Positions 44,697 to 61,279 of a DNA stretch of 64,000 nucleotides are shown here, in pieces. The stretch lies in contig CAMAUX010000005.1 in NCBI GenBank assembly GCA_945861435.1, positions 1 to 64,000 on the forward strand, given 5' to 3'. The notes below the pieces were generated by a model. It had not been told where the DNA came from, searched no databases, and saw only the letters and a list, made by a program, of their open reading frames with translations. The stretch is from Chthoniobacter flavus (lineage in GTDB: Bacteria > Verrucomicrobiota > Verrucomicrobiia > Chthoniobacterales > Chthoniobacteraceae). The first letter of the stretch is position 1. Every line of letters starts with the position of its first letter. The position numbers were made by a program, and so were the translations under genes.

Positions 44697-45485
44697 ATGA
44701 CAGAGTACAAACCAGCAGGCAGAACCCGCGCGGTGCTCCCGATCAACCTTGGAGACGGCGCGTATTGCGAGCAGTGGATTCGGAGACTTTCCGAGATCAT
44801 CAAGCCGGACACCACCAGCCTCGACGTCGTGTTTCTCGGAGGCGGGGCCAAGGTGAATCCGTCCGTCATTCTCTCCCTGCGCAACGCACTGCTCCTCGTG
44901 CCCCAGCACATCAAGCTGCGCACCGTGGCGTCCGCTTCCTTGTCGCCCTTTTTCTGTGCGGTATGGCTTCTCGGCGACGAGCGGTGGATTGCCCGGAATG
45001 CCAGGATCTGGATTCCGCGACTGCCGGAGACGATCCTGCGCGGCGGAGAAACCGAGGACCATGCTGCCGAGGCCCTGCAGAACCGCGTCCGCGAAACAGA
45101 AGACGCCGAGGACGGCGATGGAGGGGACGAGGGTGAGGCGGAAGATTTGGACACCCTGCTCCGCAACATGGTCCAGCCCAAGAGGGCGGCTGGCGGCTCC
45201 CATCAGCCGGGGTTGTTGGAGACGGAATGCGGCTGCGACCGATGCCGGATCGTCACCGAATTGCGCACGCTCGCCACCGTGGTGAACGAATGGCTCCCGT
45301 GCTGGGAATTTTCCGGGAAGGCGATTTCTTCCGAGGACTTGGTCGAGATGCGGGTGATCCGGCCCGATTGGGTTTTTGGCAACCCCAGCTCCGGGCGGGG
45401 CGGGGCTCGGCACGTGTCGGAGGTGGAGCCGGGAGTGAAGCAGGATGGGGAGGAAGCGCGGGCCCTGCAGCAGAGTATTTTTTGA
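44697..45485 (+). CDS. ClpP/crotonase-fold-like protein at the head of a TerY-P-type cassette
   Basis: 262 aa from the ATG at 44697; the frame upstream overlaps a repeat and is not protein-like. Residues ~11-110 line up with the ClpP core: a LDVVFLGGGAKVNPSVIL strand-helix (cf. SPGG), then HIKLRTVASASLSPFFCAVWL (cf. G-x-A-A-S-M) and GDERWIARNARIWI (cf. GxxRxxxPNxRIMI). Ser81 falls on the nucleophile, but the catalytic His of the MIHQP motif is Pro107. The rest has an acidic linker (~133-150), a CxCxxC cluster (ECGCDRC, ~170) and a disordered tail. It may be an inactive or altered protease scaffold. It opens the cassette vWA - PP2C - kinase that follows. Confidence 0.6.
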   Translation: MTEYKPAGRTRAVLPINLGDGAYCEQWIRRLSEIIKPDTTSLDVVFLGGGAKVNPSVILSLRNALLLVPQHIKLRTVASASLSPFFCAVWLLGDERWIARNARIWIPRLPETILRGGETEDHAAEALQNRVRETEDAEDGDGGDEGEAEDLDTLLRNMVQPKRAAGGSHQPGLLETECGCDRCRIVTELRTLATVVNEWLPCWEFSGKAISSEDLVEMRVIRPDWVFGNPSSGRGGARHVSEVEPGVKQDGEEARALQQSIF

Positions 45486-45542
45486 GAAAACGGGCTCCGG
45501 AGAATCGGAGTCCAGCAACCACAGAAAACCCAGAGTGCATTT

Positions 45543-46241
45543 ATGAACGAACAAATCCCCTACACCAATTCGCTGGCTTCGATTCAGATTGCCAGCAACC
45601 CCGAGCCCCGCTGCGCCTGCGCCCTCGTCTTGGATATCTCCGGCTCGATGAGCGGAGACGCCATTGCCGAGCTGAACGAAGCTGTTCAATGCCTGATCAA
45701 CGACCTTGCCGCGGAGGCGCTGGCGAGCAAGCGGGTGGAGATTTCCGTGGTGACCTTCGGAGAATCCGTGGAGCTGGTTTCGGATTTCACCTCCCCAAGG
45801 CAGCTCGTGATTCCCAAGCTGGAGGCGGGCGGCGGAACACCGATGGGCGAGGCGGTGGTCAAAGCCGCTTCCGTTTTGGAAGCCCGGAAGGAGGAATACA
45901 AACGCGCCGGCCTCCAGTATTTCCGCCCGTGGATGTTCCTGATCACCGACGGCGAGCCGACAGATGAGGACTCTGCCTACTGGCGGGAGGCGGTCCGGAT
46001 CGTGCACGACGGCGATTCCAAGGGCCGGCTCCTCTTTTTTGGAGTGGCAGTCGGCGGCGCCAACCAGGTCCGTCTCGACCAACTCTGTCCCCCAAAGCGG
46101 CCCTCGCAAAAACTGCGCGGCCTCCGGTTCCGGGAGATGTTTCTCTGGCTGACGCGCACGCTGACATCGGTATCCTCGTTGAACCCGGGACAGACCGTCC
46201 AGCTCCCCTCCACCAATGGCTGGAGCCAGATCGATGCCTGA
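45543..46241 (+). CDS. TerY/YegL-like von Willebrand factor A protein
   Basis: 232 aa. The MIDAS metal site is complete: Asp31, Ser33 and Ser35 (DISGSMSG), Thr99 (GGGTPMGEA) and Asp136 (ITDGEPTD). Closest in plan to the soluble vWA proteins TerY and E. coli YegL (LASIQIASNPEPRCACALVLD). It probably bridges the kinase and phosphatase to their target through the metal site. It follows the ClpP-like gene by 57 bases and its end overlaps the PP2C gene by 8 bases. In TerY-P triads the same three proteins are genetically linked. Confidence 0.9.
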   Translation: MNEQIPYTNSLASIQIASNPEPRCACALVLDISGSMSGDAIAELNEAVQCLINDLAAEALASKRVEISVVTFGESVELVSDFTSPRQLVIPKLEAGGGTPMGEAVVKAASVLEARKEEYKRAGLQYFRPWMFLITDGEPTDEDSAYWREAVRIVHDGDSKGRLLFFGVAVGGANQVRLDQLCPPKRPSQKLRGLRFREMFLWLTRTLTSVSSLNPGQTVQLPSTNGWSQIDA

Positions 46242-47130
46242 GCACCCCTGGCAGATTTGTTCCGTCACCGTGACGGGCCCCTCTCATGCCCAGATGGGAG
46301 AGGGTTGCCAGGACCGCTGCGGGATCGGGACCGCCGGCCCGGTCGGCGAAGTCCTCCTGCTCGCGATTGCGGACGGAGCGGGCTCCGCAAAGTACGGCGC
46401 CGAAGGGGCCGCGCTGGTGGTGGAGACATGGCTCGCGCATTTCACGGCACTCTTCTCCGAGAAGAAAAAGGAGCCGACGCAGGAAGCACCTCCCGTGGAA
46501 ACGGAGCAGCACGATTCCCCCGCGCCCCTCTCCGATGCTGGCCCCGCGGCTGATGCGGACTCCCAGCCCGATCACGAGTCCGGCCCGGCGGCCTTGTCTG
46601 AAGAGGGATTCCGTTTGGAGGCGTTGGAGGTGCTTCGCCATGTTCGCGAGGAGGCACAACGCCTCGCGGAGGCCCGCGGATGCGATGCGGGGGAATTCAA
46701 CGCGACTCTGCTCGGTGCCGTATTGCTGCCGGGCGCGAGTTTTTTTGGACAGGTGGGAGATGGCTGCTGGGTGGGGAGCAACGGCACGTGTCTCGGCTGC
46801 CTGACATGGCCGACTGCCGGGGAGTTCGCATCGCAGACAGTCTTTGCGGGTTCGCGATCGGCGCCGGAGGTGCTGCAGTGTGTGGTGACGGGCCCGGAGG
46901 TGCGTGCGATCGCCGGCTTCACGGATGGCGTGGAACGGATCGCCCTGCAACTGGCGCAGCAACTGCCGGAGCCCGGCTTCTTCGGTCCCGTGTTTGAATC
47001 GGTGCGGCAGTCGGGGAGTGCGCTGGAACGGGAGCTCGCCGCGTTTCTGGAATCGGAACGTGTCTGCGCGGAGTCGGATGACGACAAGACCCTTCTGATT
47101 TTGGTGCGGCCCGATGAGCTATTACGATGA
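46234..47130 (+). CDS. PP2C-type protein phosphatase (YegK-like)
   Basis: 298 aa from the ATG at 46234, which overlaps the end of the vWA gene; an in-frame ATG at 46216 would add six residues. Metal-binding aspartates: Asp47 in LAIADGAGSAK, Asp in AIAGFTDGVER and in ESDDDKTLLIL. GQVGDGCW supplies the small-residue strand. A charged insertion (EKKKEPTQEAPPVETEQ, ~78-125) is unusual for the family. The plan matches the E. coli YegK/TerY-associated phosphatase, which would dephosphorylate the substrates of the kinase encoded next. Confidence 0.88.
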   Translation: MPEHPWQICSVTVTGPSHAQMGEGCQDRCGIGTAGPVGEVLLLAIADGAGSAKYGAEGAALVVETWLAHFTALFSEKKKEPTQEAPPVETEQHDSPAPLSDAGPAADADSQPDHESGPAALSEEGFRLEALEVLRHVREEAQRLAEARGCDAGEFNATLLGAVLLPGASFFGQVGDGCWVGSNGTCLGCLTWPTAGEFASQTVFAGSRSAPEVLQCVVTGPEVRAIAGFTDGVERIALQLAQQLPEPGFFGPVFESVRQSGSALERELAAFLESERVCAESDDDKTLLILVRPDELLR

Positions 47131-48949
47131 GACAGGCAGGAGTTGGAAGCTGGGCGCACGGATTGGCGCAGGTGGTGAGGGGGAGGTGTTTCGTCTCGAA
47201 GACGCGCCGGCCTACTGCGCAAAGATCTACGCGCAGCGTCCGGTTCCAGATGCCAAGGTGCGCAAGCTCAGGACGCTGAGGGCCCTCGCAGAGCGGCTCC
47301 AAGGAGTGGCGGCGCTGCCAGTCAGCCTGCTGTTTGCAAAGCCCGCACAAAAGCAGCCGGCGGGGGTGGTCCTCCCGTTTGTTGAAGGGCGCGACATCCA
47401 CGATCTGTACAACCCCGAGGCCCGCCAGCAGACGTTTCCCCGCGCAGACCTCGGGTTTCTGGTGGCCGCGGCGCGGAACGTCGCTTTCGTCTTCGGCCGC
47501 GCCCACCAGGCCGGCATCGTGATCGGCGATGTCAGCGAGCAGAATCTGAAGGTGCGCGCGGACGCCACCGTCACACTGATTGATTGCGACAGCGTCCAGC
47601 TCTCGGATGCCGCCGAGTTTTTCCCGTGTGAAGTGGGGACCCCCATGTGGACCCCGGCGGAGCTTCAATCCCGGAGCCTCAGCGGAATCCAAAGGACCGC
47701 GAACCATGACGGCTTCGGCTTGGCGCAAATGATCTTTCTCCTGCTCTTCGGCGGGCGTTACCCGTACGCGGGCGTTCCGCTCCCGGGCGTGGATCTGCGC
47801 CCGGAAGAGGCCGTGGCCCGCTTCGCCTTTGCATACGATCCCACGCCCGCGAAACCGCTGCTTTCACCACCGCCACATGCTCTCCGCTTTTCAGCTTATC
47901 CAAAGGAAGTTCAGGAGCTGTTTCTGCGGGCCTTCCGGAAAGGCTCGGAGAAAAACGGGGCGCGTCCCTCGCCCGCGGAATGGATTGCGACGCTCACGCA
48001 GCTTGGGGAAACCTTGAAGCAATGTCCGGCCTCGCGGGCGCATTCGTTCTGGCCGGGCAACCCCCATTGTCCTTGGTGCGAAATGGCGCAGCGATCCGGA
48101 GTGGATCTTTTCCCCTCCATCGACGGGGCAAGCGGAGTCGGTCTCTGGCCTCCAGACGCCTTCCAACTGGAACTCACTGCGTTCAGACCGGTGCCTGAAC
48201 AGGCCTTGGAAAAGGGCCGGGCGATTGCCGGCGTGAAGCCGGGAGGCGGTCTCGGTTGGATTACGGCAGGCCTGCAGAAGATCGAAACGCTCCGGCGGTT
48301 CCTGAATGGACGGGAACTGGCGGATTTGCGGCAGGAACTGGAGCGGGTTGAGAAAAAGATTCAGGGGATGGGCTGGAAACTTCGGGAGTTGGTTCAACAG
48401 CACCAGCGCGATCTGGATACTGCGCGCCGCGAGGCCTCCGCATTTGCGAGCAGCCTGCAGAACCGCATGCTTCTGGAACGCGAAGTGTATGCCGAGGTGG
48501 TGAAGAAGGTGCAGGCCTCAGCTTTGGAGGACTACCTCCGCGATGCCGAAGTCCACACGGCGGAGATCCGTGGAATCGGGCGCCAAAGAATCGAGACACT
48601 AATGGCGCACGGGATCGAGACCGCGGCGGATATCACCCAGGAGCGGCTGTCCCGGGCGCACTCGTTCGGGCCCAAATTGATTGCGCGCCTTCTCCAATGG
48701 CGGCGGGAGATTGAAAAAGAGTTCCAGTCGTTCGGGAATCAGACGCACCAGCGCGCAATTCAAGCCGGCATGCCGGAGGCCTTGAGGCGGCGTTCAGACC
48801 AACTCAAGGCGCGGATCAGGGAGATTCTGATTAAGACCGATGCCTCCAAACGCACCTATGCAAAGGCGTTCCAAAAACTGGAAGAGTCTTTTCATCAGCA
48901 GCAGATCCAGCGCGAAGTGCTCCAGATGCAGATCGCAGCGCTGCAGTGA
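47114..48949 (+). CDS. YegI-like protein kinase with zinc ribbon and helix-hairpin-helix
   Basis: 611 aa, overlapping the PP2C gene by 17 bases. The kinase core has IGAGGEGEVFRLE (G loop), a Lys in YCAKIYAQ, GDVSEQNLKV in place of HRDxxxxN, and IDCDSVQL in place of DFG. Both substitutions are typical of the YegI/TerY-linked group. A zinc-ribbon-like CPASRAH…CPWC (~300-320) follows, then a long coiled coil (LRQELERVEKKIQGMGW). A helix-hairpin-helix (EIRGIGRQRIETLMAHGIET, FGPKLIARLL) suggests nucleic-acid or DNA-end binding. With vWA and PP2C it forms a phosphorylation triad. It converges on the sigma-factor gene, 9 bases apart. Confidence 0.88.
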   Translation: MSYYDETGRSWKLGARIGAGGEGEVFRLEDAPAYCAKIYAQRPVPDAKVRKLRTLRALAERLQGVAALPVSLLFAKPAQKQPAGVVLPFVEGRDIHDLYNPEARQQTFPRADLGFLVAAARNVAFVFGRAHQAGIVIGDVSEQNLKVRADATVTLIDCDSVQLSDAAEFFPCEVGTPMWTPAELQSRSLSGIQRTANHDGFGLAQMIFLLLFGGRYPYAGVPLPGVDLRPEEAVARFAFAYDPTPAKPLLSPPPHALRFSAYPKEVQELFLRAFRKGSEKNGARPSPAEWIATLTQLGETLKQCPASRAHSFWPGNPHCPWCEMAQRSGVDLFPSIDGASGVGLWPPDAFQLELTAFRPVPEQALEKGRAIAGVKPGGGLGWITAGLQKIETLRRFLNGRELADLRQELERVEKKIQGMGWKLRELVQQHQRDLDTARREASAFASSLQNRMLLEREVYAEVVKKVQASALEDYLRDAEVHTAEIRGIGRQRIETLMAHGIETAADITQERLSRAHSFGPKLIARLLQWRREIEKEFQSFGNQTHQRAIQAGMPEALRRRSDQLKARIREILIKTDASKRTYAKAFQKLEESFHQQQIQREVLQMQIAALQ

Positions 48950-48958
48950 CGAATATTC

Positions 48959-50431
48959 TCAGGCCGCGATCCCGTGCATCGCGTCCACCTCATCCGGGAA
49001 AACCATCGCTTGGGACAGGGACCGACCCATGACTGCAAGTGCCGCGGATTCGATCCGGCGCAGTTCCGCAGCCGACATCCGCAGACGAGCGGCGACTTCC
49101 TGCGGTGCCCCGTGGACGGCGCCGTTGAGGCCGAAACGGTGCTCCACGACCTCCCGCTGCTGCGGCGTAAGGTGCGAGAAGGCTGCCTGCAGCTGCACGC
49201 CGGCCCAACTAGCGCGCTCCTCGTCGGATGCCGAGAAACCTGAAACAGCGTCTGGCACTTGGCTGAGGCAAAGCGTTTGGTCCGGGCGCGCCCGCATGTG
49301 GAGAGCCCGACCGTTCCTCTCATGCTCGAAGAGCTCGCATACCCGTTCCGATTCGAGACCGCAGTGCGCCGCCAAATCCTTGGGCTGCGGTTCGCGGCCA
49401 AGCCGGGCACTGAGGAGCGAGGCGGCTTTCCGGAGCTTCCGAAGCTGTTCGCACACGTAGACAGGCAGGCGGACGAGTCCGTTCTGGTTGTCTACAGCCC
49501 GGAGAAGAGACGAGCGGATTTTGGTGGTGGCGTGGGTGCTGAACCTCGCCTTGTGCGCTTCGAAACTTTCGGCGGCGCAGATCAGCGCGATGGTGGACTC
49601 TTGGACCAAGTCCTCGGGAGCCATTCCGGAAATCTCAAACCTTCTCGCCTGACTCACCGCAAGCCGGAGATTGGACAACACCAACCGATCGCGATGCTGA
49701 AGAAAGGTTTTTTCCAGAGCGGCAAGGGTGGTGAAAAACGGCCCCATGTCGGTCTCGCTCAACCAGAGTTCGTCTTCAAGGGCGTGCAGATCCTGAACTG
49801 CAGCAGGATCACCCGCTCGAATCCGGCGCCGGATCTGCCCGAGGAATTCGAAGCGGACGCGGAGATGGGAGAGCATGTCATCCAGTCGCGCATACACGAA
49901 TTCGCACGAGAGAAGCGGCTGGCGGACGACTTCCAGCGCCGCAAGAAATCCCGCCTTATCCTCGGAACCCTGTGTGACGGAGAATCGGAGAAAAGCCGCG
50001 CGAATCCCGGCAATGCTTTTGACCAAGGACGCACGCAGAGTCGGCGTGGCCTCGATCGGCGAATGTTTTGCGCCGACGCTCGCAAGCCATTCGATCGCGA
50101 CGCGGGTTTGAAGCAGATGACTCCAAAAAGCGGCTTTCGACTGCCGAATGGCACCCGCGACTTCGCGCTCTTGATCCGGCGTGAGGAGGGGCCGGGTCTC
50201 CAAGGTCCATGCGGGGGCATGCAGCGGACTCTCCGAAGGAATGGCCCACTCGTCCGCTAGATCCATGGATTCAAAGCTGGAAAATGCGAACTCATCCGCC
50301 CCGTCATCGATGGCGGGCGAAGCCAGACGGCGGGACTTCGTTTTGCCGCGGCGCGGAGAGGGCTTCAAGGCGGTGGAAAAACCGAATTCAGACTGGCTCG
50401 GGGGAGGCGCGGTGCGTCTGGTGGATTTCAT
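48959..50431 (-). CDS. divergent sigma-70-family factor (RpoD-like plan)
   Basis: 490 aa from the ATG at 50431 (the frame upstream runs through low-complexity DNA). A long disordered N terminus precedes a region-1.2-like helix (RPLLTPDQEREVAGAIRQSK). A ~140-residue nonconserved insert follows, as in RpoD, then region 2 (NLRLAVSQARRFEISGMAPED, ARFSTHATTKIRSSLL), region 3 (GREPQPKDLAAHCGLESERV) and region 4 (LTPQQREVVEHRFGLNGAVH, EVAARLRMSAAELRRIESAAL). Region 2.4 departs strongly from the housekeeping consensus, so its promoters are probably distinct. The gene faces the kinase of the TerY-P-like cassette tail to tail, which fits a stress-response link, but this is inference. Confidence 0.8.
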   Translation of the reverse strand: MKSTRRTAPPPSQSEFGFSTALKPSPRRGKTKSRRLASPAIDDGADEFAFSSFESMDLADEWAIPSESPLHAPAWTLETRPLLTPDQEREVAGAIRQSKAAFWSHLLQTRVAIEWLASVGAKHSPIEATPTLRASLVKSIAGIRAAFLRFSVTQGSEDKAGFLAALEVVRQPLLSCEFVYARLDDMLSHLRVRFEFLGQIRRRIRAGDPAAVQDLHALEDELWLSETDMGPFFTTLAALEKTFLQHRDRLVLSNLRLAVSQARRFEISGMAPEDLVQESTIALICAAESFEAHKARFSTHATTKIRSSLLRAVDNQNGLVRLPVYVCEQLRKLRKAASLLSARLGREPQPKDLAAHCGLESERVCELFEHERNGRALHMRARPDQTLCLSQVPDAVSGFSASDEERASWAGVQLQAAFSHLTPQQREVVEHRFGLNGAVHGAPQEVAARLRMSAAELRRIESAALAVMGRSLSQAMVFPDEVDAMHGIAA

Positions 50432-51051
50432 GGGGTGGGCATGCAGCGTTGGAGGGGAGCGGTCAGGGGGCGGGGCAGATCTTCTCCGGCAAGGAATCCT
50501 CTCCTTTCCCCACGACGATCGCACAGGGGGTGGGACATTGATTGAGGCACCCCCCTGGAAATAAACGGCCGCCTCCGCCACAGATACCGCAGCCACGGCC
50601 TTCCCCATCTGCCTTTCGGAGTTTCGAGTCTGATGCATGACGTCGGAGTTGGATGGAGCCGCACCGGTATTTCGAAGTGCAGCTCCATCGTTCTTGAGGA
50701 AGGAGGCAGCCCCCGGTTTTTCGTTCTTTTTTTAAGAACGCATCTGACCGTGCGGCTGTCCACCAACCCACGCGCCCCGCCTTCATGGGATCTCGGTTGA
50801 TGAAACGAGGGCGCGTTGCCATGGGCTACACGCATTCGCCCTCATGCTGTCGGCAAACAGGCTTCCGCCCCCCCTCCAGATCCCAGCCGCACGGGCTTAT
50901 TGTCCGTGTGATCAAAGCGCTCCTCCCTGCCCTCCTTGCGGCCGCCACCGGCAATGCAGGGTTCAACCCCGGACCGCGCTGCGCGACTCCCTTCAACATT
51001 TCCGCGTGGAGGCGAAAGCACGCACGCGCTATTAAACACCCTCGCGCATCA
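50432..51051. other. 620-base divergent upstream region, no gene
   Basis: Lies between the sigma-factor start (minus) and the giant cytochrome start (plus). The cytochrome frame is open from 50785 but has no signal peptide before 51052. A repeat-like stretch, GGCCG…CGGCC with CCGCCACAGATACCGCAGCC between, sits near 50562-50600. The inverted repeat at 50722-50740 is listed separately. Promoters for both genes are expected here but cannot be pinned. Confidence 0.5.
50722..50740. promoter_or_regulatory. inverted repeat, possible operator
   Basis: CGTTCTT (50722-50728), five T, AAGAACG (50734-50740): a perfect 7-bp inverted repeat in the long upstream region of the third cytochrome locus, about 310 bases before its start and 290 bases before the sigma-factor start. 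It could be a protein-binding site for either gene. Confidence 0.3.
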
Positions 51052-58829: not shown

Positions 58830-59621
58830 ATGCCATTCTCCTCACCAAAGGAACCGGTCCCCGCGCCGCTCGCGACGACGAATGCGAGCCGCGCCTACCG
58901 TGCCTCGGCCCAACCCTGGGCGGAGGAGGAGAACCTGCGGGCCCACCTGCCACTCGTCCGCAACATCGTCGACCGGATCCGCTCGAGCCTGCCCCCGCAC
59001 ATCGACGTCGACGATCTCTACAGCGTGGGCCTCGGCGGGCTCATTCAGGCCGCGCGAAAATTCGATCCGGCCCACGGGGTGAGCTTTCCCAATTTCGCCA
59101 GCAACCGCATCCGGGGTGCCGTGCTGGACGAGCTGCGGCGGATGGACTGGATGAGCCGGGCCCTCCGAGGCAAGGCGAAGCAGCTCAGCGACGTGATCGG
59201 CCAGCTCGAGCAGCAGCTCGGACGCCCCGCCACGGAGAGGGAGATTTCCGACGAACTCGGCATCAGCCTTGAGCAATACAGGGCGCTTCTCGAAGAGGTG
59301 AAACCCATCTGCTATATAGAGTTAGATGAGTTGCACGAGGAGGAGGGGCACGAGGGAAGCCTCCACGAGTCCATCGCTGACAAATCCCAGCCCACCCCCT
59401 CCGATCAGCTCCTCGACAAAGAGCTGCGTCAACTGATAGTTCAGCGCCTGCAATCCCTACCCGACATGCAACGCAAGGTCCTTTCGATGTACTATTTTGA
59501 AGACCTCCGCCTTGCTGAAATCGCAGTAGTTTTCGGCGTCACAGAATCGCGTATCTGCCAGATCCATGCGCAGGCGGTTCTAAGCCTCCGATCCTATATC
59601 AAGTCCGCAACTAATAGATAA
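58830..59621 (+). CDS. fliA: FliA/WhiG-type flagellar sigma factor (sigma-28)
   Basis: 263 aa, family length. Regions 2 (NLRAHLPLVRNIVDRIRSSL, DLYSVGLGGLIQAARKFDP, FPNFASNRIRGAVLDELRRMDW), 3 (RALRGKAKQLSDVIGQLEQQ, ATEREISDELGISLEQY) and 4 (LQSLPDMQRKVLSMYYFEDL, EIAVVFGVTESRICQIHAQAV) are all present. RRMDWMSRALR is the signature of the FliA/WhiG group. It directs transcription of late flagellar genes; motA and motB follow at once. No anti-sigma FlgM is seen in the window. Confidence 0.95.
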   Translation: MPFSSPKEPVPAPLATTNASRAYRASAQPWAEEENLRAHLPLVRNIVDRIRSSLPPHIDVDDLYSVGLGGLIQAARKFDPAHGVSFPNFASNRIRGAVLDELRRMDWMSRALRGKAKQLSDVIGQLEQQLGRPATEREISDELGISLEQYRALLEEVKPICYIELDELHEEEGHEGSLHESIADKSQPTPSDQLLDKELRQLIVQRLQSLPDMQRKVLSMYYFEDLRLAEIAVVFGVTESRICQIHAQAVLSLRSYIKSATNR

Positions 59622-59657
59622 CCACCCCTTTTTCCACCCCCTCCACCCCTTTTTCTC

Positions 59658-60524
59658 ATGCTACTGATCATTGGCTACATCATCGTAACGGCCGCCACCC
59701 TCGGAGGGTTCATGATCGCCGGAGGCAACCCCATTGTACTGGGGCATGTCTCTGAGTTCGTCACCATCGGCGGCATCTCCCTCGGTCTCCTTGTCATCGC
59801 GGCTCCAGCCAGCGCCCTGACAAGCCTCGTCCACAAAATCACTGTGGCTCTCAAGGGGTCCGCCTTCACAAAGAACGACGCCACCGACCTCCTCAAGCTC
59901 CTCTTCGAACTCTTCACCACCGCACGCCGCGGCGGCCTGATCGCCATTGAAGACCACCTGCTGACCCCGGCCACCAGCACCGTGTTCACCAAATACCCCT
60001 CCTTCCTCAGCAACAAAGAGCGCGTCCAATTCCTCTGCGACAGTCTCAAACCCATCGTCGACGGACGCATCAAGCCGGACCAGTTGGAAAGCCTCCTCCT
60101 TGCCGAGTACGACGCCAAGGACGAGCACGCCGGACATCCCGTCCACCTTCTCAACCTCGTGGGCGACTCCCTTCCCGGCATCGGCATCGTGGCCGCGGTG
60201 CTCGGCATCATCAACACCATGGGCGCCATCGCCGAAGGCCCTGAAGCCGTCGGCGAAAAGGTGGCCGCCGCACTCACAGGCACCTTCCTCGGCGTGCTCG
60301 GCGCCTACGGCTTCATCAACCCGCTCGCCGCGCGCATCAAAACAAACAACGGCTCTGAGATGCTCTACTTCATGGTCATCGTCCGCGGCGTTGCCAGCTT
60401 CGCCGGCGGCATGGCGCCCCTCATGGCCGTCGAAGTCGCACGCCGCACCCTCTCGCACGACATTCAACCCACCGCAGATCAACTCGAGGAGATGGTCAAA
60501 GGCCTCGGCACCGCCAAAGGATAA
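59658..60524 (+). CDS. motA: flagellar stator protein MotA
   Basis: 288 aa. Four membrane helices: two at the N terminus (LLIIGYIIVTAATLGGFMIA, and SEFVTIGGISLGLLVIAAPAS) and two towards the C terminus (LPGIGIVAAVLGIINTMGAI, AALTGTFLGVLGAYGFINPL). A large cytoplasmic loop sits between them (LFELFTTARRGGLIAIEDHL). The Pro of the third helix and the GTFLGV stretch match the ion channel. With MotB it forms the stator that drives the flagellar motor by H+ or Na+ flow; which ion cannot be told. Its stop shares a base with the motB start (TAATG). Confidence 0.95.
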   Translation: MLLIIGYIIVTAATLGGFMIAGGNPIVLGHVSEFVTIGGISLGLLVIAAPASALTSLVHKITVALKGSAFTKNDATDLLKLLFELFTTARRGGLIAIEDHLLTPATSTVFTKYPSFLSNKERVQFLCDSLKPIVDGRIKPDQLESLLLAEYDAKDEHAGHPVHLLNLVGDSLPGIGIVAAVLGIINTMGAIAEGPEAVGEKVAAALTGTFLGVLGAYGFINPLAARIKTNNGSEMLYFMVIVRGVASFAGGMAPLMAVEVARRTLSHDIQPTADQLEEMVKGLGTAKG

Positions 60525-61279
60525 TGGCCAAGAAAGCCGAACATCACGGCGGGGCATGGAAGGTTGCCTACGCCGATTTCGTCACCTCCATGATGGCGCT
60601 CTTCATGGTCCTTTGGATCTGCGCCCAGAACGAGCAGGTCCGCGTCGCCACCTCCCGCTACTTCAAGGATCCGTACAAGGCCCTCGACGACCGCGCGCCG
60701 GGTGTCCTTCAGGAACAGATGGCCGGCTCCTCCAGATCCTCCGACCGCCTCGACCCCACAGCCTCGGAAAACCAGAACTACCTCAAGGCGCTCGCACGCG
60801 AATTCTACAGCCTCCTCAATGTTAAGGAGGATGAGGAGGACCGCCCCGTCCAAGTCGACGTCACCTCAGACGGCCTCAAAATCACTATCTACGACCGCAC
60901 CAAGAAAGCCGTCTTCAAGCCCAGTTCCTCAGAATTCACCGAGTGGGGCAACTTCGTCGTCCAAACCCTCGCCTGGCTCGTCGAACGCTATAACTTCCAA
61001 GTCTACATCGAAGGCCACACCGCCAAGGGCATGGTCGCGGAGAAACCCGGCTACGGCCGCTGGGAACTCAGCGCCGACCGTGCCAATTCCACGCGACGCG
61101 GACTCGAATTCTTCGCCGTCAGCCCTCGCAAAATCAACCGCGTCTCCGGCTTCGGCGACACCGTCCCCCTCCCCAGCGAGGAACCGGGCAGCGAGGCCAA
61201 CCAGCGCATCGCAGTCAGCCTCTCCATTCAGCAGGACGCCCCGCGGCCCGCCGTTCCGGCAAGCAGCACCGTCCCCTGA
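60524..61279 (+). CDS. motB: flagellar stator protein MotB
   Basis: 251 aa. The start is the plug-less N terminus typical of MotB (AWKVAYADFVTSMMALFMVL), with the ion-binding Asp18 in the single membrane helix. A periplasmic linker leads to the OmpA-type peptidoglycan-binding domain (~105-235): VFKPSSSEFTEWGNFVVQTL, YIEGHTAKG, GRWELSADRANSTRRGLEFF and GFGDTVPLPSEEPGSEANQR. It anchors the stator to the wall. Overlaps motA by one base. Confidence 0.95.
   Translation: MAKKAEHHGGAWKVAYADFVTSMMALFMVLWICAQNEQVRVATSRYFKDPYKALDDRAPGVLQEQMAGSSRSSDRLDPTASENQNYLKALAREFYSLLNVKEDEEDRPVQVDVTSDGLKITIYDRTKKAVFKPSSSEFTEWGNFVVQTLAWLVERYNFQVYIEGHTAKGMVAEKPGYGRWELSADRANSTRRGLEFFAVSPRKINRVSGFGDTVPLPSEEPGSEANQRIAVSLSIQQDAPRPAVPASSTVP

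Follow-up and report, generated by a model that had tools for sequence, protein, structure and literature searches.

The window, by which we mean the whole stretch of 64,000 nucleotides analysed, comes from a freshwater Chthoniobacteraceae bacterium with a 5.35-Mb draft genome (96% complete), in which it lies on a 142-kb contig. Close public relatives of this genome are metagenome-assembled Chthoniobacteraceae/Spartobacteria genomes. Four genes stand in a row on one strand and are followed by a divergent sigma-70-like gene (Table 1). Gene 1 is separated from the vWA gene by a gap of 57 bases, the vWA and PP2C genes overlap by 8 bases, and the PP2C and kinase genes overlap by 17 bases, in agreement with the gene row and overlaps described in a sequence-only reading of this DNA. 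All four ORFs were taken as real genes because a second species has homologs in the same order with 40-62% protein identity. For the sigma-like gene, the true start codon is possibly near 50434.

Table 1. Genes of the locus, with positions in the window
Feature	Position	Strand	Remarks
Gene 1, predicted ClpP-fold protein, 262 aa	44697..45485	+	degenerate active site, acidic insert, CxCxxC motif
Gene 2, vWA protein, 232 aa	45543..46241	+	intact MIDAS, 46% identity to E. coli YegL
Gene 3, PP2C_2 phosphatase, 298 aa	46234..47130	+	27% identity to E. coli PphC, metal-site Asp kept
Gene 4, YegI-type Ser/Thr kinase, 611 aa	47114..48949	+	CHCC knuckle, helix-hairpin-helix region, 31% identity to YegI
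Divergent sigma-70-like gene	48959..50638	-	regions 2 and 3, weak region 4; convergent with kinase

Judged by their sequences, genes 2 to 4 belong to the known YegL/PphC/YegI (TerY-P-type) triad. The identities to the E. coli K-12 proteins in Table 1 were obtained pairwise over 230 residues for YegL (E 1e-60), pairwise for PphC (E 7e-26), and by BLASTP over 579 residues for YegI (E 4e-70); the YegI alignment takes in the helix-hairpin-helix part at the C-terminus. The vWA gene matched Pfam VWA at 42.9 bits and the PP2C gene matched PP2C_2 at 120 bits; the kinase gene gave weak matches under the cut-off to Pkinase (21.1 bits) and HHH_5 (14.8 bits). Residue alignments covered members from the own family, from other Verrucomicrobiota, from plasmids and from E. 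coli. Across these members the vWA protein had an invariant MIDAS (D31/S33/S35, T99 and D136), and D27, D47-G48, D176-G177, D231-G232 and D284 of the phosphatase were invariant with PphC. In the kinase, K37, D139, D157 and the knuckle residues C304/H310/C319/C322 were invariant in 10 members, and GDVSEQN, DCD, Cys304-x5-His310-x8-Cys-Pro-Trp-Cys and the helix-hairpin-helix region aligned with E. coli YegI. These results confirm the earlier calls of a vWA protein with intact MIDAS, a PP2C phosphatase and a kinase with YegI-type motifs and a helix-hairpin-helix, and the E. coli identities and gene order confirm their assignment to the TerY-P triad and the yegI-yegK-yegL arrangement. The zinc ribbon proposed for the kinase stood only in part: its Cys and His residues are conserved but make up only one small CHCC knuckle.

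The window locus has the vWA-PP2C-kinase order with close or overlapping frames, an order that is frequent, not universal, in verrucomicrobial loci. The E. coli K-12 locus yegL-pphC(yegK)-yegI has the same genes, the same order and the same kinase, PP2C, MIDAS and Cys-His residues as the window, but it has no ClpP-fold or sigma gene and carries yegJ between pphC and yegI. E. coli YegI also has strongly hydrophobic, transmembrane-like segments, which are absent from the kinases of the window and other Chthoniobacteraceae and present in plasmid and family-f9 versions of the YegI-type kinase. The TerY-P-type triads on Cupriavidus and Mesorhizobium plasmids resemble the window in having vWA, PP2C and helix-hairpin-helix kinase genes in the same order with touching or overlapping frames, and differ from it in lacking a ClpP-fold gene. 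With the kinase alone as query, no match was found in public genome contigs. In the sister genus (L043, L044, L045 and L047), the composition of the triad varies: two genomes have adjacent vWA and kinase genes with the PP2C gene missing, and two others have the kinase without an adjoining vWA or PP2C gene, beside chorismate-mutase-like and scpB/scpA-like genes.

For gene 1, there was no match in the Pfam, NCBIfam or PADLOC families, and none of 28 members of its family matched Pfam CLP_protease. Searches of PDB sequences with the gene 1 protein alone and with the family profile A3 returned nothing meaningful. When A3 was aligned with ClpP by hhalign, the Gly-Gly and Ser-helix motifs were colinear, as they were by eye, with an E value (0.29) that is not significant alone. 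An AlphaFold model of residues 11-235, built on the 28-sequence alignment, had a pTM of 0.72 and a mean pLDDT of 79.7 (over 90 in most of the core). All of its 50 best PDB matches were ClpP (Z 13.2-14.5), the best of them with a Z of 14.5 and an rmsd of 2.5 A over 142 residues, and Foldseek also gave ClpP (E 4e-5). The identity between gene 1 and ClpP was 9-16%. A STAS fold led (Z 7.0, against Z 6 for ClpP) only in a poor model from six sequences (pTM 0.43); the 28-sequence model, for which the matches listed were all ClpP, took its place. Because the model, the PDB ranking and Foldseek all give ClpP, gene 1 is, as far as prediction can show, a protein with the core fold of ClpP (peptidase family S14). 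The ClpP-like fold guessed in the sequence-only reading, which had named structure prediction as a check, was thus supported.

The same reading had called the protein protease-like, and as an active enzyme this did not hold, since the family lacks a conserved His. ClpP has a Ser-His-Asp triad and an axial region. In the 28-member alignment of the gene 1 family no column was a conserved His, and the position of the ClpP His was Pro in all six own-family members (RIWIP in place of DIMIH). The first residue of the model aligns with about residue 25-27 of ClpP and just 10 residues precede it, so that the N-terminal axial region appears to be absent. The model also contains a long acidic insert of low confidence, which would sit in the place of the ClpP handle; within it a CxCDRC motif is found, among own-family members, only in the window and in the same-genus genome G389, both of which are triad-linked. 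A true ClpP is encoded elsewhere in the window genome. From the lack of a conserved His and of the axial region, and from the acidic insert at the handle, we conclude that gene 1 probably encodes a pseudoprotease. ClpR and other ClpP-fold pseudoproteases likewise have the ClpP fold with an incomplete catalytic triad, and ClpR resides in ClpP rings. Gene 1 resembles them in fold and in loss of the triad; unlike ClpR, it has no axial region and is linked to a kinase/phosphatase switch.

The column near ClpP Ser98, whose placement in gene 1 is uncertain by one or two residues, was Ser in 7 and Cys in 21 of the 28 members; own-family members have Ser there, and most distant-family members have Cys. 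This strict Ser or Cys at a nucleophile-like position leaves some scope for activity of the protein. An active hydrolase would use the Ser or Cys, found within about two residues of the Ser98 position in 28/28 members, together with an unusual base, and the triad would then control proteolysis, perhaps of an anti-sigma factor in concert with an M50 protease. M50 (site-2-protease-like) genes do lie directly after the sigma gene in G393 and G395 (L025:5169-6110(-) and L028:7204-8217(+)), at loci with no adjacent triad. Given the missing His, the Pro in its place in every own-family member and the absence of an axial region for a ClpX-type partner, we regard such a hydrolase as improbable.

Of 40 genomes in its own family, 6 carry gene 1 or a homolog, the window counted, and the other five are 33-42% identical to the window protein. 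Profile searches added relatives in a second family of the order, where 14 of 26 genomes had between one and three copies. Across the phylum, 388 sampled genomes yielded no relatives outside those two families, apart from one marginal match that ran through stop codons (E 0.009). Profile A1 detected five own-family loci and nothing else in public genome contigs, the gene 1 protein (P0001) had no match by tblastn in 72,556 plasmid records, and no relatives were found in viral contigs. The family comprises about 30 members in this analysis, all of them seen in Chthoniobacterales, and has no entry in the libraries searched. In the distant-family loci L068, L119, L122, L123, L129 and L130, the ClpP-like gene directly follows a gene for a LysM-domain-like protein, and a LytTR-type response regulator and a sensor-kinase-like gene lie farther upstream.

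The block of ClpP-like, vWA, PP2C and kinase genes is present in G389 with 42%, 62%, 40% and 43% identity to the window, respectively. There the ClpP-like and vWA genes overlap by 8 bases (ATGAATGA), and the vWA/PP2C and PP2C/kinase overlaps are 17 and 20 bases. In the retrieved flanks of G389, no ORF outside the conserved block matches the window. Gene 1 is probably co-expressed from the triad operon. The recurrent co-occurrence proposed earlier as a check was seen in part: the block recurs in this second species of the genus with differing flanks, but gene 1 is absent from the E. coli and plasmid triads and from 20 of 22 verrucomicrobial loci with a vWA or kinase gene, some of which end at contig edges, and the two loci that have it belong to one genus. 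Gene 1 is not a general component of the triad, and its place there is so far confined to one genus. Since only two species, both in the same genus, share the block, the linkage could go back to a single event.

An ordinary triad may simply stand beside an unrelated ClpP-fold gene, the two having been joined once in the ancestor of the genus and sharing a transcript by chance. The 20 loci without gene 1 fit this explanation, as do the sister genus, where the kinase and the ClpP-like gene are on different contigs and the latter stands beside sigma or AAA genes, and the distant family f4, where it adjoins unrelated genes; yet the order has been kept at 40-62% protein identity with differing flanks, the ClpP-like and vWA frames overlap in G389, and 5 of the 6 genomes with the ClpP-like gene have the kinase too. 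Among the 40 family genomes, the ClpP-like gene occurred in 6, the kinase in 8 and both in 5 (hypergeometric P 5e-4); within the two genera concerned, this co-occurrence (5/6) was not significant (P 0.06). We consider a chance neighbour rather unlikely, and binding or phosphorylation of the gene 1 protein by the switch likely.

The divergent sigma-70-like gene also belongs to the conserved block, a point that the sequence-only reading missed. In the window it is on the strand opposite to the cassette; in G389 it shares the strand of the kinase and comes directly 3' of it, and its product had no match to region 4. A sigma-70 gene was found within 3.6 kb of the ClpP-like gene in 4 of the 6 own-family loci. 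In G393 it is divergent at a distance of about 130-190 bp, and in G395 it lies 145 bp 3' of the ClpP-like gene; the kinase is on another contig in both. No sigma gene was found near the ClpP-like gene in G399. The contig of G400 stops just past the ClpP-like gene, and 1.4 kb upstream of the triad vWA gene this genome has a sigma-like gene whose product had no match to region 4. The genomes, of 4.2-5.4 Mb, have 5-7 sigma-70-class genes each; therefore, a chance neighbour within 5 kb would be expected at about 1-2% of loci. The two genera amount to two more or less independent cases, noticed after inspection of all neighbours. The sigma genes of the window, G389 and G395 form one divergent group and that of G393 falls in another clade, so the linked genes are not all orthologs. 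The association between ClpP-like and sigma genes is suggestive, not proven.

Here the triad is known; what we read as new is the genus-level addition of a ClpP-fold protein to it. On balance we favour a YegL-PphC-YegI phosphorylation switch to which a non-catalytic ClpP-fold partner has been added. The kinase would phosphorylate itself and its targets and the PP2C would reverse this, as is reported for E. coli, where, according to a passage of PMC13232886 citing earlier work, YegI autophosphorylates and PphC dephosphorylates YegI. The vWA protein may be a metal-dependent scaffold joining target and enzymes. The ClpP-fold protein would most likely bind to the switch or be its substrate, as a pseudoprotease scaffold and not a peptidase, with its acidic insert and Cys cluster as the likely regulated part. 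The YegL-PphC-YegI switch is widespread, and to our knowledge neither signal nor target has been established for it, E. coli included. By tying one extra protein and a sigma-70-like gene to the switch, this genus provides a concrete candidate for the target that is lacking. The ClpP-fold family appears to have kept the fold and lost the protease active site.

The output of this switch might be the activity of the neighbouring sigma-70-like protein, a suggestion that we make only tentatively. In partner-switching systems, a PP2C phosphatase (SpoIIE/RsbU), an anti-sigma kinase and a STAS protein act with a sigma factor. The window likewise brings together a Ser/Thr kinase, a PP2C, a small alpha/beta protein and a sigma-70-type gene, but its kinase is YegI-type and not GHKL, a vWA protein is present, and a ClpP fold takes the place of STAS. 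It is conceivable, if distinctly unlikely, that the target of the switch is a ClpP-fold pseudoprotease, which would retain or set free the sigma-70-like protein, the ClpP fold replacing STAS in the partner switch; if true, this would be a new kind of sigma control.

Defence-type genes lie near some relatives, either of the cassette or of gene 1, namely a SNF2/DUF3670 helicase near L027 (10438-13780), DrmD near L048 (644-3907) and an OLD-like AAA ATPase beside the ClpP-like gene (L024:6192-7916). That the five genes form an anti-phage or other conflict module is nevertheless very improbable: no neighbour of this type was found in the window, and the PADLOC kinase, TerY and MzaA matches were weak or due to the general kinase, vWA or sigma fold.

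A short similarity between the window and G389 in the DNA 5' of the sigma gene (the VPPPVR region) was considered as a promoter and not called one because it was not found in the other loci. Elsewhere in the window, at 58830-61279, the sequence reads as a FliA-like gene of the sigma-70 family with MotA- and MotB-like genes after it.
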